Below, piece by piece: positions 35,143-49,998 of a stretch of DNA of 57,470 nucleotides. Every line of letters begins with the position of its first letter. The stretch's first letter is position 1. The stretch lies in the NCBI GenBank assembly GCA_022702935.2, contig JAKIML020000099.1, positions 1 to 57,470 of the forward strand. Reading direction: 5' to 3'. This DNA comes from Bacillota bacterium (GTDB taxonomy: Bacteria > Bacillota > Clostridia > DSM-8532). The translations under genes and the position numbers were made by a program. The notes beneath the pieces are model-generated. The model was not told where the DNA came from and ran no database searches. It saw only the letters and a list, made by a program, of their open reading frames with translations.

Positions 35143-36993
35143 TTAATAGCTTTCAACGCCTTTCGCAAGCATCTCTCTCAGCTTATCAATATTTCGTCCG
35201 GTTATAATCTTAATATTCATGGCCAGCTCATTGAGGGTTTTTCTTATCTGATCCAGCTCCACATAGCGCTTAACCTTCATGGAGGTCGTTTTTATCAGCT
35301 CCTCATAGCCAAAGACGTAATAGCGTATCGTCTTGTAGACAGGCATGAGCTTGTTGATATCCTTAATGGCCTTATCCAGCAGCTTTCGAATACTGCTCTC
35401 ATCATCGGGAGACGGAACCATAGCCAGGATCTTCTCCTTATCCAGCACTATCTTGGAGCAAATCTCCACATTCCCGTCTGCAGTAGCCTCACCCCATACT
35501 AAGGATTCCTTGACAAACTGCAGCTCGTTAATATGGGATTCCAGCTCTTCAGGAAAGACCTTTTTCCCGTTCTTAAGGACGATCATGGACTTAACGCGGC
35601 CCGTCACATGCAAAAGACCCTTCCTATCGATCTTTCCCAGATCTCCGGTATGGAACCAGCCGCCCCTAAGGGCTTCGGCAGTAGCCTCTTCATTCTTCCA
35701 ATAACCCAGCATAACATTTTTGCCCTGTACCACAATCTCCCCCGTTCCATCGGGTGAGGGATTGGCAATGGCCAGCTTCACACCGGGCAAGGGCTGTCCG
35801 CAGGTTCCGATCTTTCGAACCCTGTCGCAGCCACCGGCAACCACCGGAGCCGTTTCGGTAAGACCATAGCCCTGGTAAACCCTGATACCAATATTCTCAA
35901 ACCATTTGGCTGTTTTGGGCTCCATGGCTGCACCGCCGGTAACAATAACCCGAAGCTTTCCGCCCAGGGGCTCTAAAAGCTTCTTAAAGATTTTTCGCCT
36001 GAGATCAATGCCCAAATGAGCAATGGCATTGGCGGTCTTCATCAGGGCCTGAACCTTTTTATCCAGCCCCTTTTTCTTAACCTCTTCCATAATACGGTTC
36101 TTGAACTTATCAAATATCAAAGGAACCCCCACAAGACAATGGGGCTGATACTCAGTCAAGTTCTTATTGATATATTTCAGACCATCGCTGATGGACACGG
36201 TCATCCCCAGATAGAGCGGGAACAACAGGCCTGCTGTGTTCTCAAAGGTATGGTGCATGGGGAGAATGGACATCACAGACTCTCCAGGTTCAAAGCGTAC
36301 CACGCCGCCAAGACTCATAATGTCAGCACAGATATTGCTATGGCTCAGCATGACGGCTTTGGAGCTGGAGGAAGTCCCGGAAGTAAACAAAAGAACGCTC
36401 ATGCCTGTGGGGTCCACTTCTATGGAGGTATACTCAGCATAGTGATCCTTCAGCAATTGCTGACCCTGCTCCAGTAACTGATAAAAAGCATGGAAGCGGG
36501 AATCCTCATTTTCTTCCGGCGATGCATTCATGCAGATGAGAGCCTTAAGACGGCTGTTGCGCTGGGCAATGGCCTTGATGTCATCAGAGAAGGCATTGGA
36601 ATAAACCAGAACATCCACTTCGCCCCGTTCCAGCAAGGACTCAATCTCATTGGGCGGTAAAAGTCTGTCCAGTGGAATGGCAATCCCCACCCCATTTACA
36701 GCAGCCAGATAGGAAACCACCCATTCATAGCGGTTCTCACCGATAATGGCAACGCGGCTGTTTTTCAGGCCCAGCTTCACCAGGGCGCTGCCCAGGGCAT
36801 TGACATCGTCGAAAAACTCGGAATAGGTCTTGCAAACTGTTTCATCCTTGGGTTCATGACGGTATTTGAAGGCAATTTTGTCACCATATTTAACTCTGCA
36901 TTTATTGAGCATATCCTTTAGACTATTTATCTCCATTGCGCGATACAATGGCTTTCCTTCAACAATATTGACGAGCTTGAGGGTTTCGTTCAT
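35143..36993 (-). CDS. AMP-binding long-chain acyl-CoA synthetase-like protein
   Basis: A 616-residue ANL-superfamily enzyme. Core motif A3 is LLFTSGTSSSSKAVMLSHSN (about 200-219), A5 is YQGYGLTETAPVV, A7 is WFHTGDLGKID, A8 is GRVKSMIVLKNGKKVFPEELE, and the C-terminal catalytic lysine region is ELIKTTSMKVKRY. The sequence resembles FadD15/AMP-dependent synthetases that activate medium- or long-chain fatty acids with ATP and CoA, possibly for membrane lipid recycling. Its substrate is not shown. It forms a single-gene unit upstream of pta. Confidence 0.93.
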   Translation of the reverse strand: MNETLKLVNIVEGKPLYRAMEINSLKDMLNKCRVKYGDKIAFKYRHEPKDETVCKTYSEFFDDVNALGSALVKLGLKNSRVAIIGENRYEWVVSYLAAVNGVGIAIPLDRLLPPNEIESLLERGEVDVLVYSNAFSDDIKAIAQRNSRLKALICMNASPEENEDSRFHAFYQLLEQGQQLLKDHYAEYTSIEVDPTGMSVLLFTSGTSSSSKAVMLSHSNICADIMSLGGVVRFEPGESVMSILPMHHTFENTAGLLFPLYLGMTVSISDGLKYINKNLTEYQPHCLVGVPLIFDKFKNRIMEEVKKKGLDKKVQALMKTANAIAHLGIDLRRKIFKKLLEPLGGKLRVIVTGGAAMEPKTAKWFENIGIRVYQGYGLTETAPVVAGGCDRVRKIGTCGQPLPGVKLAIANPSPDGTGEIVVQGKNVMLGYWKNEEATAEALRGGWFHTGDLGKIDRKGLLHVTGRVKSMIVLKNGKKVFPEELESHINELQFVKESLVWGEATADGNVEICSKIVLDKEKILAMVPSPDDESSIRKLLDKAIKDINKLMPVYKTIRYYVFGYEELIKTTSMKVKRYVELDQIRKTLNELAMNIKIITGRNIDKLREMLAKGVESY

Positions 36994-45403: not shown

Positions 45404-46513
45404 ATGAGTTTGGATGAAGTCATTAAAAAAATCGGGCAAATCATACACTTAGAGGGTCCCCTGCTCCGTGTGGTTTGTGCCCTGGCCATCGTCATATTGG
45501 GCATATTATTCAGACGCCTCTTTGTCAGATGGCTTATCTGCATCCTTCTTAAACTTGCCAAAAAGACAAAAACAGAGCTCGACGAAATGATCATCCAAGC
45601 TCTGGATAAGCCCGCCAATGCTTTAGTGCTCTTTACAAGCATCTGGACTGCCCTATTGGTGCTTTCCCCGCCCCCGTCCCTGCTAAGCTTTATTAACAAG
45701 GTTTATCGAACCGTCTTTATTATTCTGGTCTGCTGGTTCCTGTACCGTGCTTCGGGCAGCCTCATGTGGCATTTGGAGCGTACTCTTAACAAAACCGAAA
45801 AGAAAGCCAGCCCCATGCTGCTGGCATTCTTCAGAAAGGCCTTAAAGACCTTCATTGTGGTTCTTGAGATATTTATGATCATCAAGGAATGGGGCTTTGA
45901 CGTCAGCGGCCTTTTAGCAGGACTGGGCATCGGGGGCCTGGCCATTTCTCTGGCTGCAAAGGACGCTGCCTCCAACCTGATTGGCAGCATTACCATTATG
46001 CTGGACAAAACCTATAAAATCGGTGACTGGATCGAGACCGAAGAAGTGGAGGGGACAGTGGAAGAGCTGGGCTTCAGAAGCACGAAAATCCGCACCTTTT
46101 CCGATGCTCTGGTCACCGTCCCCAACGCGGTCATGAGCAATGAGCCCGTCACCAATTGGTCCAAGATGGGCAAGCGCAAGGTTTCCTATACCCTGGAAAT
46201 CCCCCTGGATACCCCTCTGGACAAGATAGAACTGCTGCTTCAGCGGATTAGGGATATGCTTAAGGGGCATGCCGATGTCAATCAGGACGTCATTGCAGTA
46301 AACCTTCAAGGCTTTGGCGAAGCCACGTTGAAGGTGCTGATTTATTATTTTACCAAGACCACCTCGTTTATCACCTATCTTAAGGTCACCGAGGATGTGA
46401 ACATCCGGGTCCTGCGTATCTTCGAAGAATTGGGCATCCCCATTACTGTTCCCGTACATCGTATGCTGGTGGAGAATAAGGATTTCTTCCACCAGCCATC
46501 TTCTAAACCTTGA
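45404..46513 (+). CDS. Small-conductance mechanosensitive channel, MscS family
   Basis: A 369-residue membrane channel that opens on osmotic downshock. Four hydrophobic segments lie in the first 200 residues, the last with the pore-lining pattern [20 protein letters not shown] followed by [17 protein letters not shown], then the beta domain [26 protein letters not shown] and cytoplasmic alpha/beta region. Either ATG 45398 or 45404 can start; 45404 has better spacing to GGGAG. Its last 11 bases overlap the convergent chemoreceptor gene. Confidence 0.94.
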
Positions 46514-48587
46514 ATTTCACCACCAGGGCCTGCAGATCCTTCGAGCTCTGCTTAACCAGATCGGTTTCATGGGCGATCTCCACGGCCTGCGCCTTAATCC
46601 TCATAATTTCGTCAGCGATGTGATTGGTGCCTTCAGAAACCGTATTGCTGGCATTGGATATCTCTGCAATGGTGGCCGATACTGATTTAATGGAAGCCAG
46701 AAGCTCTTCAGAGGTAGCACTTAAGTCGGTGGCCCACTCATTGATATACATGGCATCCTTGTCATAGTTTTCACCCACAACAACCGAATCCTTATAGCTT
46801 TCCACAACCTTGGTCTCCAGGTATTCCACCACACTGCGGCTGGCATCCACCAGACTCTGCACCGATTCGAAGATCACATTCAGGGTATTCTGTATTTCAC
46901 CAACGGTATTCTTGGAATCATCGGCAAGCTTTCTGATTTCTTCGGCTACAACGGCGAAGCCCCTGCCCGTCTCTCCTGCCCGTGCCGCCTCAATGGCTGC
47001 ATTCAGCGCAAGAAGATTGGTTTTGGAGGAGATGTCCATGATAACATCCGCCAATGCTCTTAACCGTTCAACCTCATCGGCCTTGGTCAGCGCGATGTCC
47101 ATGGTCTCCTTAATGCTCTGATGTCTCTTTTCAGCATCCTCCTGGAGGGCCATGGATTTGGCCTTCAACTCTTCCGCCTTTTTGCTGATCTCATTGGCAG
47201 AGATAGCACCTTCCTCAGCCTTCTCGGCTACAGTCTCCACAGCAGTCTCAATCTCTGCCGAGGTTTCGGCAATCTGATCAGTGGAGGATGCGGTCTCGGT
47301 CATGCCCGCGGCAACCTGCTGGACAGTGGCAGAGGCCTCGGCCAGTGCTTCCGACAGGATGGATATATTCTGATGGGAGGCGGCCACCGCTTCATTGACA
47401 TTTTTGGTCTCTTTCATAATCCTGGTGACCATCTCGCGCACATTCACAATAAAGCTGCTGAAGGACTTGGACATTTCTCCGATTTCGTCCTTTTGCTTAA
47501 GAAGGTCGGGGGCGATTTCAAAGGACAAATCCAGCGCACCCGCCCGGACGGTATATTCCTTAAGACGTTCCAAATGCTTTGTTAAGCCCTTGGTGAAGAA
47601 ATAGACCACGATAATGCTTAACACAAGAAAGGCCAGGGAGGTCAATCCAATCCCCCATACAAGGTTGTTAACACCCGCCATCAGCTCGGATTTTTCCACC
47701 TGCACTGCCACCGACCAATCGGCAATGCTCACAGGGGCATAACCCAGAAACATGGGTACACCATTGTAGCTGTATTCACCAAAACCTGATTCTCCCTTAA
47801 CCATTTCAGCCAGAACCTTGGTGTAATTCTCAAACCCCATACTGTTCTGTGCCAGATTGGGCACTGTTGCCGAAGAAACCGCATCAGCTTCACCGCTGCC
47901 TGCATTGGTGGTAGCCGATGAGACACCGTCCACCTCACTGGTCTTACTTTCAATAATGTTTTTAAGAATCTCCACATCGGAGTGGGCGATGGTTTTGCCG
48001 TTTTTGGCCGATATAAACACATTGCCGGTATGGCCTACAATGATCTCCTTAGCCAATTCACTGAGCTCGTAACCATCGGCTATGGCAATCAACACGCCCA
48101 CATTACCATCTCCCGATTTTACGGGAACGGCATAGATCATATCAATACCATCACCATTAGGATTCAGCATGGGCCCCTCAATGGCAGCCTCTCCCTGGAT
48201 GGTCTTCTGGAAGTAACTGGTTTCAGTAATGCTCCCTCTTTCACCGGTGTTGTAAACAATGGTTCCATTGGCCTTTGCATACCCCATCTGTTTATAACCC
48301 TGGCGTTCGGTGACCTGCTTAAGCAGGGCTATCACTTCAGGTTCGGGAGTGTTTGTATTGACTAACTCGCTGTTAGCAGCCAAAACCTCCAATGTATTGA
48401 TACGTCCGGTAATCTTGGTATCAACAACTCGAGAGGCCTCCATGGCCACCTTGGGCAGCATCTCTTCAATATTGGTGGAAAGGGCTTTATAGCTGTCCTG
48501 ATAGGCCATGAATCCAAGCCCGATGCATACAGCCACTAAAAGAGAACTCATGAGCAAAACAATTTTGAACTTTAAACTTCTTCTCAT
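46503..48587 (-). CDS. Methyl-accepting chemotaxis protein with dCache-like sensor and two flavinylation-like motifs
   Basis: A 694-residue chemoreceptor: membrane segment 1 (about 8-28), extracytoplasmic double-Cache-like sensor (30-305), segment 2 (309-332), HAMP (332-385) and a long signalling coiled coil whose tip is [20 protein letters not shown] with [13 protein letters not shown]. Within the sensor, the stretch of about 30 residues after IIESKTSE is an insert relative to ordinary Cache receptors and carries DGVSSAT (220-226) and DAVSSAT (235-241). This matches the Dx-V-(S/T)-(S/G)-A-T site used by ApbE flavin transferases, on the correct side of the membrane. Flavin attachment is inferred only. 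GAGG precedes the ATG. A flavoprotein gene lies 58 bases upstream on the same strand. Confidence 0.95.
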
Positions 48588-48645: not shown

Positions 48646-49998
48646 CTACCGGTTCAGGCGCATGGTTTTATCCAGTACCTTACGATAGGGTGCAATCATG
48701 CCCTCGTTCATCCTATTCCCCATTTTCGCCTTAATCTTCTGGGAGGAAAGCAGGGCACCGACAGCATACATTTTAAGCATGTCCGCCTTTTTCTTATGCG
48801 GAAAATCGTACAAACCGTGGGATTTATAGTATTGATGATCGGCCTTCATCATACCGCGCATGAGATAAATCATATCGCGGAAAATCTTCAGGCCGCCTAT
48901 GCCATAAAAGTTCCGGGGCTGTACATACCTATGCGCCATGGCATAGGCCAAAGTTTTTGCCATTTGATCAATGGCTGTCTCAGGACTGGTTTCGTTTGTG
49001 GCAACACCGGCCAGAAAATTACCCCCCACCTCGGCGCGCCCCTCGATAACCATTTGCAGATTCTTCTCCGCACTGTAATGACCGTTGATCAGGTACCCTA
49101 TGGGCATGCCCGCTGTAACGGTCCGATGACCATTGCAGAACTGTCTGTCGTCATACATCTTGAATACCGAACCCATGGAATGGTCCTTGATGGTAAAGGC
49201 ATAGACTATGGCATCTGCCCGCTGAATGTCACTGCGCAAAAACTCATCAAAACCATCCTTATAAACACACCTGCCTGATACGGCACAGCTAAAGCAACCT
49301 AAGCAGCCACCCTGAAACGGGTATTCACGGATATTGACTACACGGCTTGCACAGGGCAACACTGCCTGGAATCGGGCAATCATATCCTTGAGCGGTTGAT
49401 CATCGGACTGACAGTCGGTGATGATAACCACATCCCCCTTGGTATGTAACGCAGCGGCCTTTGGTATGCTCACCGGCACCAGCTCATTATGCGGCAGATG
49501 CACGGGCATGGGCTCATAACAGTTCTCTTCCATGCACCATAGCACATAACCGAAGAAATCCAGCGCTTCTTTTCTGCCCTTTTCTGTGAGCAGATCGTCC
49601 ATATCGGCTGAGAGCCCTTTGATAAACTTCATACCCAAATCCTGGCAATTATCCTGGATGTAGCGGTGTGCTGTTACATCATAGAAATGCTTGGATGTGG
49701 TAATCTGAGTCGCAAATTTGTCCTTCAGATCAACCTCATGGGCTTTTAACAGTTCAATAAAGCGGTGAAGCTGACTTGGCGCCATAAAGGTATAAACGGG
49801 ATAGGAAAAAAGGATCAGGTCGGCATGTTCCAATACACTCGTGACAGAGCTGAAATCTCTCTCAAGAGCTTTAATCTGCTGACCCACATTCAGTACCTGG
49901 AAACGATGCTCAGGATACAACTTTTCCAAAAAAAGAACGGTCTGCAGGGTTATGCTGTACCTTCCCTTCGGGCTCCCGTTAACAACTACGATGTCCAT
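48646..49998 (-). CDS. Tandem flavodoxin-fold protein with iron-sulfur flavoprotein motif
   Basis: A 450-residue fusion of two flavodoxin-like domains. Domain 1 (1-165) starts with [15 protein letters not shown], the FMN phosphate loop of NADPH-dependent FMN reductases, and has [20 protein letters not shown]. Domain 2 (187-450) contains [15 protein letters not shown] with Cys232, 235, 238 and 244, a CX2CX2CX5C spacing as in archaeal/clostridial iron-sulfur flavoproteins, so an FMN and a 4Fe-4S cluster are likely there. The C-terminus adds a helical region with many basic residues. The substrate is unknown. It lies just upstream of the chemoreceptor gene, probably in one transcript, with GAAGAGG before its ATG. 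Confidence 0.85.

Follow-up and report, generated by a model that had tools for sequence, protein, structure and literature searches.

Candidate flavinylation motifs in the extracytoplasmic sensor of a clostridial dCache chemoreceptor family

The window, that is, the whole stretch of 57,470 nucleotides that was analysed, comes from a member of the Clostridia and contains a gene for a dCache methyl-accepting chemotaxis protein with two transmembrane helices around its sensor (Table 1). Both defining Pfam matches exceed their cut-offs, with 76.5 bits against 45 for dCache_1 and 99.3 bits against 34.6 for the MCP signalling domain. A HAMP domain after the second transmembrane helix is matched only weakly (E 0.15; 12.9 bits, where the cut-off is 25). 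Neither FMN_bind (PF04205) nor any PAS family is found among the Pfam matches of the receptor up to E 1. The CXXCH heme motif is absent from its sequence, and its single cysteine lies in the first transmembrane stretch. A first-pass annotation had drawn attention to two near-identical heptads in the sensor, DGVSSAT and DAVSSAT, and these are present in the 694-residue frame at residues 220-226 and 235-241. It had also placed them on the extracytoplasmic side. This agrees with the predicted topology, as the heptads fall within dCache_1, which is bracketed by hydrophobic stretches at residues of about 4-30 and 308-337 according to hydropathy; both therefore lie in the portion of the protein that is expected outside the membrane.

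Table 1. Coordinates of the receptor gene and of its domains, insert and candidate motifs in the window
Feature	Positions	Strand	Basis or remark
dCache methyl-accepting chemotaxis protein, 694 aa	46503..48587	-	Open reading frame with ATG start; Pfam dCache_1 E 3.1e-21, MCPsignal E 2.9e-28
First transmembrane helix, residues about 7-28	48504..48569	-	Hydropathy
Extracytoplasmic dCache_1 sensor domain, residues 38-295	47703..48476	-	Pfam; AlphaFold2 model, mean pLDDT 85.5; Foldseek to dCache ligand-binding domains
Disordered insert, membrane-proximal Cache module, residues 218-245	47853..47936	-	pLDDT <50; gap at motif 2 in 50/50 relatives compared from outside the clade
Candidate flavinylation motif 1, DGVSSAT, residues 220-226, acceptor Thr226	47910..47930	-	Sequence; spacing varies in relatives
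Candidate flavinylation motif 2, DAVSSAT, residues 235-241, acceptor Thr241	47865..47885	-	Sequence; the more conserved motif
Second transmembrane helix, residues about 309-331	47595..47663	-	Hydropathy
MCP signalling domain, residues 482-645	46653..47144	-	Pfam

On the same strand as the receptor gene and 58 bases upstream of it, a gene at 48646-49998 (minus strand) encodes a protein of 450 residues whose N-terminal domain is FMN_red/flavodoxin-like. An operon with this flavoprotein was considered and discarded, since the protein had no match at E 1e-10 in 29 relative loci. Among the other window frames of at least 120 residues beyond base 36000, an ABC-transporter ATPase was matched in 8 loci and two frames were matched once each. 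In the 29 relative loci (with up to 6 kb of flank, 556 open frames), BLASTP detected no apbE. The queries were six ApbE proteins, which match one another and include that of the window's own genome, and one unrelated frame.

Based on 28 sequences, an AlphaFold2 model of receptor residues 27-307 has high overall confidence (mean pLDDT as in Table 1, pTM 0.81). Confidence falls below 50 at model residues 192-219, which correspond to receptor residues 218-245 and hold both motifs. In the membrane-proximal Cache module of the model, a helix lies on either side of this loop, and the last three strands of the module follow. The top-ranked Foldseek matches are dCache sensor domains, mostly from chemoreceptors, and the fold resembles that of ligand-binding dCache domains whose solved structures contain amino acids and uric acid. 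A flavin pocket is not apparent in the sensor model.

A scan by two peptide patterns, applied to one genome per species for 84,980 species, returned 29 loci. The sensor search of 61 genomes gave full-length matches in 16 genomes besides that of the window, and a truncated match in one more (G030), while 391 genomes of the class, searched in the same way, yielded one further clade member (L205, in G795) and a distant relative, L223. Together with the window's receptor, 30 distinct homologues with the insert, 33-52% identical to it, make a set of 31 receptors. The named carriers, reached through the 29 loci of the species scan, are Ruminiclostridium cellobioparum subsp. termitidis (52% identity), Anaerobacterium chartisolvens, Thermoclostridium caenicola, and Lutispora thermophila. 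Insert-bearing receptors span six family-level groups (f1, f21, f22, f194, f209, f216), and L223 belongs to f202. A near copy of L071 (L072) and a truncated receptor (L073) were left out of the alignment of 28 sensors (A2) and of the counts, and L223 was excluded from the clade counts.

Conservation in homologues, on which the first-pass annotation had made its reading depend, was found: the insert and at least one D-x4-A-[ST] heptad are present in all 31 receptors. The inserts contain 60 such heptads, against 6.0 in composition-matched shuffles, which leave the shared descent of the 31 rows in place. With the looser pattern D-x-x-[ST]-x-A-[ST], 55 sites are found in 29 of the 31 receptors (2.15 in shuffles), and the strict motif D-x-x-[ST]-[GS]-A-T occurs 40 times in 26 of them, compared with a shuffle mean of 0.22 and a maximum of 3 in 2000 shuffles. 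The reversed strict motif does not occur in the inserts of the same 31 receptors. Alignment A2 gives a similar picture, with 35 strict motifs against 0.21 in shuffles, strict sites in 23 and looser sites in 26 of its 28 rows, and no site in the sensor outside the insert in any row.

Judged from these sequences, motif 2 is the core of the insert. Among the 31 rows, its D and its S are each kept in 29 and its A in 28, and the linker that flanks it varies in length and sequence among homologues. Two or more D-x4-A-[ST] heptads at variable spacing are present in 26 rows, and a single one in the other five (L048, L058, L066, L068, L071). Five rows have no strict motif: in L048, L055, and L059 all acceptors are Ser, and L060 and L065 lack Ser/Thr at position 4. 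Position 5 of the heptad is mostly Ser. The first-pass annotation had also raised the possibility of a disordered repeat unique to this strain. Disorder is indeed predicted (pLDDT <50), and uniqueness to the strain is contradicted by the 30 further homologues. The 50 relatives compared outside the clade all have a gap at motif 2, and the loop comprises 37 residues in the nine of these in which it was measured. These 50 rows are chosen search matches, with L221 included and with L026-L031 and matches without loci excluded. In the other 13 dCache places of the window's genome, D-x-x-[ST]-x-A-T is not found.

In a tree of 82 sensors calculated with the insert columns removed, from which L020 was dropped because of its short length, the 31 insert rows form a single branch (SH-aLRT 95). 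The distant relative L223 (L223:420-3131) is a 904-residue MCP with dCache_1, HAMP repeats, and MCPsignal. It carries a Ser/Thr/Ala-rich insert in the same place of the Cache fold, with EAASGAT, DGTSEAT, and DATTSAT. L223 is located elsewhere in the tree than the clade, and two changes are needed. Independent origins of the insert were considered, and a single origin is compatible with the data (p-AU 0.138); as one origin is not rejected, convergence between the clade and L223 is not claimed. Two receptors of another family (L221 and L222, 781 aa), which match the sensor profile along its length, carry an insert of another kind at a nearby position; it includes DGKVDVTGSASL and lacks the strict motif.

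In the window's genome as a whole, the DNA pattern of the strict motif has 28 matches and its reversed control 49, which rules out genome-wide enrichment; the case thus rests on conservation and position. Translated in open frames of at least 150 residues, five of the 28 sites give the strict motif: two in the receptor and one each in RnfD, a CotH-like protein, and an EF-P-like protein. The last of these, which we take by eye to be EF-P, would be cytosolic. The CotH kinase-like protein (PF08757; L151:562-2685, contig C80) has an exact DANSSAT at about residue 313 of its frame.

RnfD and RnfG carry covalent FMN on a Thr residue, attached by ApbE in the bacteria studied (PMC12174285), and covalent FMN in NqrB/RnfD by the action of ApbE is also described in PMC8238504. 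The first-pass annotation had named the absence of an apbE-type gene as evidence against flavinylation. One ApbE is encoded in the genome (contig C59, E 2.5e-67); it has a lipoprotein-like signal ending in APGC, with the lipobox recognised by eye, and is apparently exported. The genome's own RnfD (TIGR01946) contains DAVSSAT, a heptad identical to motif 2 of the receptor, which strengthens the ApbE reading, and RnfG in the same Rnf cluster contains QAVSGAT. The Rnf genes are located on contig C6, likewise apart from apbE, so adjacency to apbE is not a necessary feature of a substrate. An RnfD match was found in 52 of the 61 genomes, the window's own included, and the site was matched in 25 of the 30 loci examined. 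DGVSSAT, identical to motif 1, occurs twice among the RnfD sites of relatives and DAVTSAT once. Position 5 of these sites is S, T, A, F, or Y, and this variability weakens the objection that the receptor has Ser instead of Gly there.

ApbE is present in all 18 genomes with an insert receptor and in 33 of the 43 others (Fisher p 0.026, with kinship ignored). It was also found in 15 of 15 genomes of the named loci, several of which recur from other genome sets, and in 11 of 11 further genomes, some of them recurring, of which five have an insert receptor, one has L223, and five apparently have neither. Co-occurrence was rejected as proof: apbE is a necessary but weak test, since most relatives (51 of 61) have ApbE, and the enzyme serves Rnf anyway. 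FMN_bind proteins occur in all 15 receptor genomes examined, and none of these 15 has the receptor as the sole ApbE substrate. Five FMN_bind places each were counted in G051 and G601, some of them two per frame of 275-281 residues, and two in G491. G051 has no RnfD match.

The known properties of ApbE bear on whether a loop of this kind could be modified. According to a review of flavinylation (PMC12052999), the seven-residue motif is all that ApbE requires; labelling within a surface loop is possible, though less complete than at a terminus. In fumarate reductase of K. pneumoniae, labelling was lost when Thr was replaced by Ala, fell by half with Ala in place of Gly, and changed little with D to A; elsewhere, Ser in place of Thr lowered it (PMC12052999). 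The consensus in this review has Gly at position 5. Flavinylation has been demonstrated for FMN_red proteins whose extension, modelled as unstructured, bears one or two motifs (PMC11334425). By analogy with these extensions and with loop labelling by ApbE, the receptor loop is probably flavinylated, and on sequence and analogy we regard FMN attachment to the insert as likely. Weighing against it are the lack of an apbE neighbour and of FMN_bind homology, the imperfect motif in 5 of the 31 receptors, the Ser at position 5, the lower completeness of labelling in loops, and the missing enrichment of the motif across the genome.

The receptor shares the D-x-x-[ST]-x-A-T site with the ApbE substrates RnfD/NqrB and RnfG/NqrC, which are electron-transfer subunits with their own folds, whereas it is itself a dCache protein without FMN_bind or RnfD homology. 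Like the FMN_red proteins (PMC11334425), it has a motif-bearing addition on a pre-existing fold; the genes of those proteins lie near apbE and their flavin pocket is known, and its loci and model give the receptor neither. A 2026 preprint (PMC12889525) states the prevailing view that Cache domains function cofactor-free and describes the first covalently bound cofactor in them, a heme. This class, sCache_heme (DUF3365/Tll0287), is the nearest precedent found, as it likewise combines a Cache sensor with an acquired covalent-cofactor motif (PMC12889525); its c-type heme is attached via CXXCH, which the receptor lacks.

The dCache fold is common to the receptor and the amino-acid receptors PctA, PctB, Mlp24, and Tlp3, and the sequence match to PDB chains covers profile positions 87-197 at most. 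To our knowledge, PctA, PctB, Mlp24, and Tlp3 do not have this insert. Aer/Aer2-type energy-taxis receptors are chemoreceptors with a redox cofactor, as is proposed here. In Aer, FAD is bound non-covalently in a cytoplasmic PAS domain, whereas the receptor has no PAS match and its motifs are predicted outside the cell.

The explanation that we favour, and consider somewhat more probable than doubtful, is that these clostridial dCache chemoreceptors form a family of ApbE substrates in which a tethered flavin senses extracellular redox state. With FAD as the donor, an exported ApbE would attach FMN to Thr241, and as a rule to Thr226 too, in the flexible loop. The tethered flavin or flavins would then change state with extracellular redox conditions, as set by oxygen, quinones, humics, minerals, or electrons from membrane chains. 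The flavin may perhaps dock in, or leave, the PAS-like pocket of the membrane-proximal Cache module, and the second transmembrane helix and the MCP signalling domain would relay the change to CheA. Because the loop belongs to the PAS-like module nearest the membrane, redox-dependent docking would be well placed to move the second transmembrane helix. Given FMN attachment, we infer that redox signalling by the receptor is probable, and docking of FMN in the Cache pocket is a guess. The complete picture, in which each subunit bears one or two covalently bound FMN on a Cache loop outside the membrane and clostridia thereby swim by the redox state outside, has in our estimate an even chance of being right.

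Flavinylation could also occur without redox sensing, with the flavin acting as an electron relay, a sink, or a structural lid while the Cache module binds an ordinary ligand. In descriptions to date, ApbE substrates take part in electron transfer outside the cytosol (PMC12052999, PMC8238504), and the resemblance of the sensor fold to dCache domains that bind amino acids and uric acid in solved structures fits an ordinary ligand. A chemoreceptor with two transmembrane helices has no obvious electron partner, however, and the flavoprotein gene beside it in the window, when compared, did not recur beside the receptors of relatives. We regard this alternative as unlikely.

Unmodified heptads, or heptads with another modification such as O-glycosylation, would be expected if the insert were a flexible linker rich in Ser, Thr, Ala, and Asp. 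The inserts consist of 20% Ser, 15% Thr, 15% Ala, and 10% Asp, some members (L055, L059) have degenerate or repeated SAS units, and the segment is modelled as disordered, all of which fits a linker. Such a linker accounts poorly for the excess of strict heptads over shuffles, read with the shared descent that these keep, for the absence of the reversed motif, and for heptad letters that match the RnfD sites of the same lineages. This explanation therefore appears distinctly unlikely. Flavins in PAS/LOV domains sense light, and Cache modules are PAS-like, so a tethered flavin might serve as a blue-light chromophore instead of a redox sensor; nothing was found that points to light, the position of the sole cysteine makes a LOV-type adduct impossible, and we consider this highly improbable.

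Judged by titles and the beginnings of abstracts, no flavinylated chemoreceptor is described among the open-licence papers searched. Flavinylation and chemoreceptor terms occur together in PMC12727194, PMC4990184, PMC7512555, and PMC8836040, where they reflect unrelated uses or references. A word search found none of "chemotaxis", "sensor", and "Cache" in the main text of either survey (eLife 2021, mSystems 2024), and neither "chemotaxis" nor "sensor" in that of the flavinylation review.

The observation is real, and stronger than the sequence of one strain alone could show; flavinylation of the receptors is likely and redox sensing by them plausible. If the favoured explanation is true, ApbE would be part of signal transduction, beyond the electron-transfer proteins described so far, and the receptors would form a second covalent-cofactor Cache class, after heme. 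They would then provide anaerobes with a direct sensor of extracellular redox state, amounting to an energy-taxis receptor whose flavin sits outside the cell.
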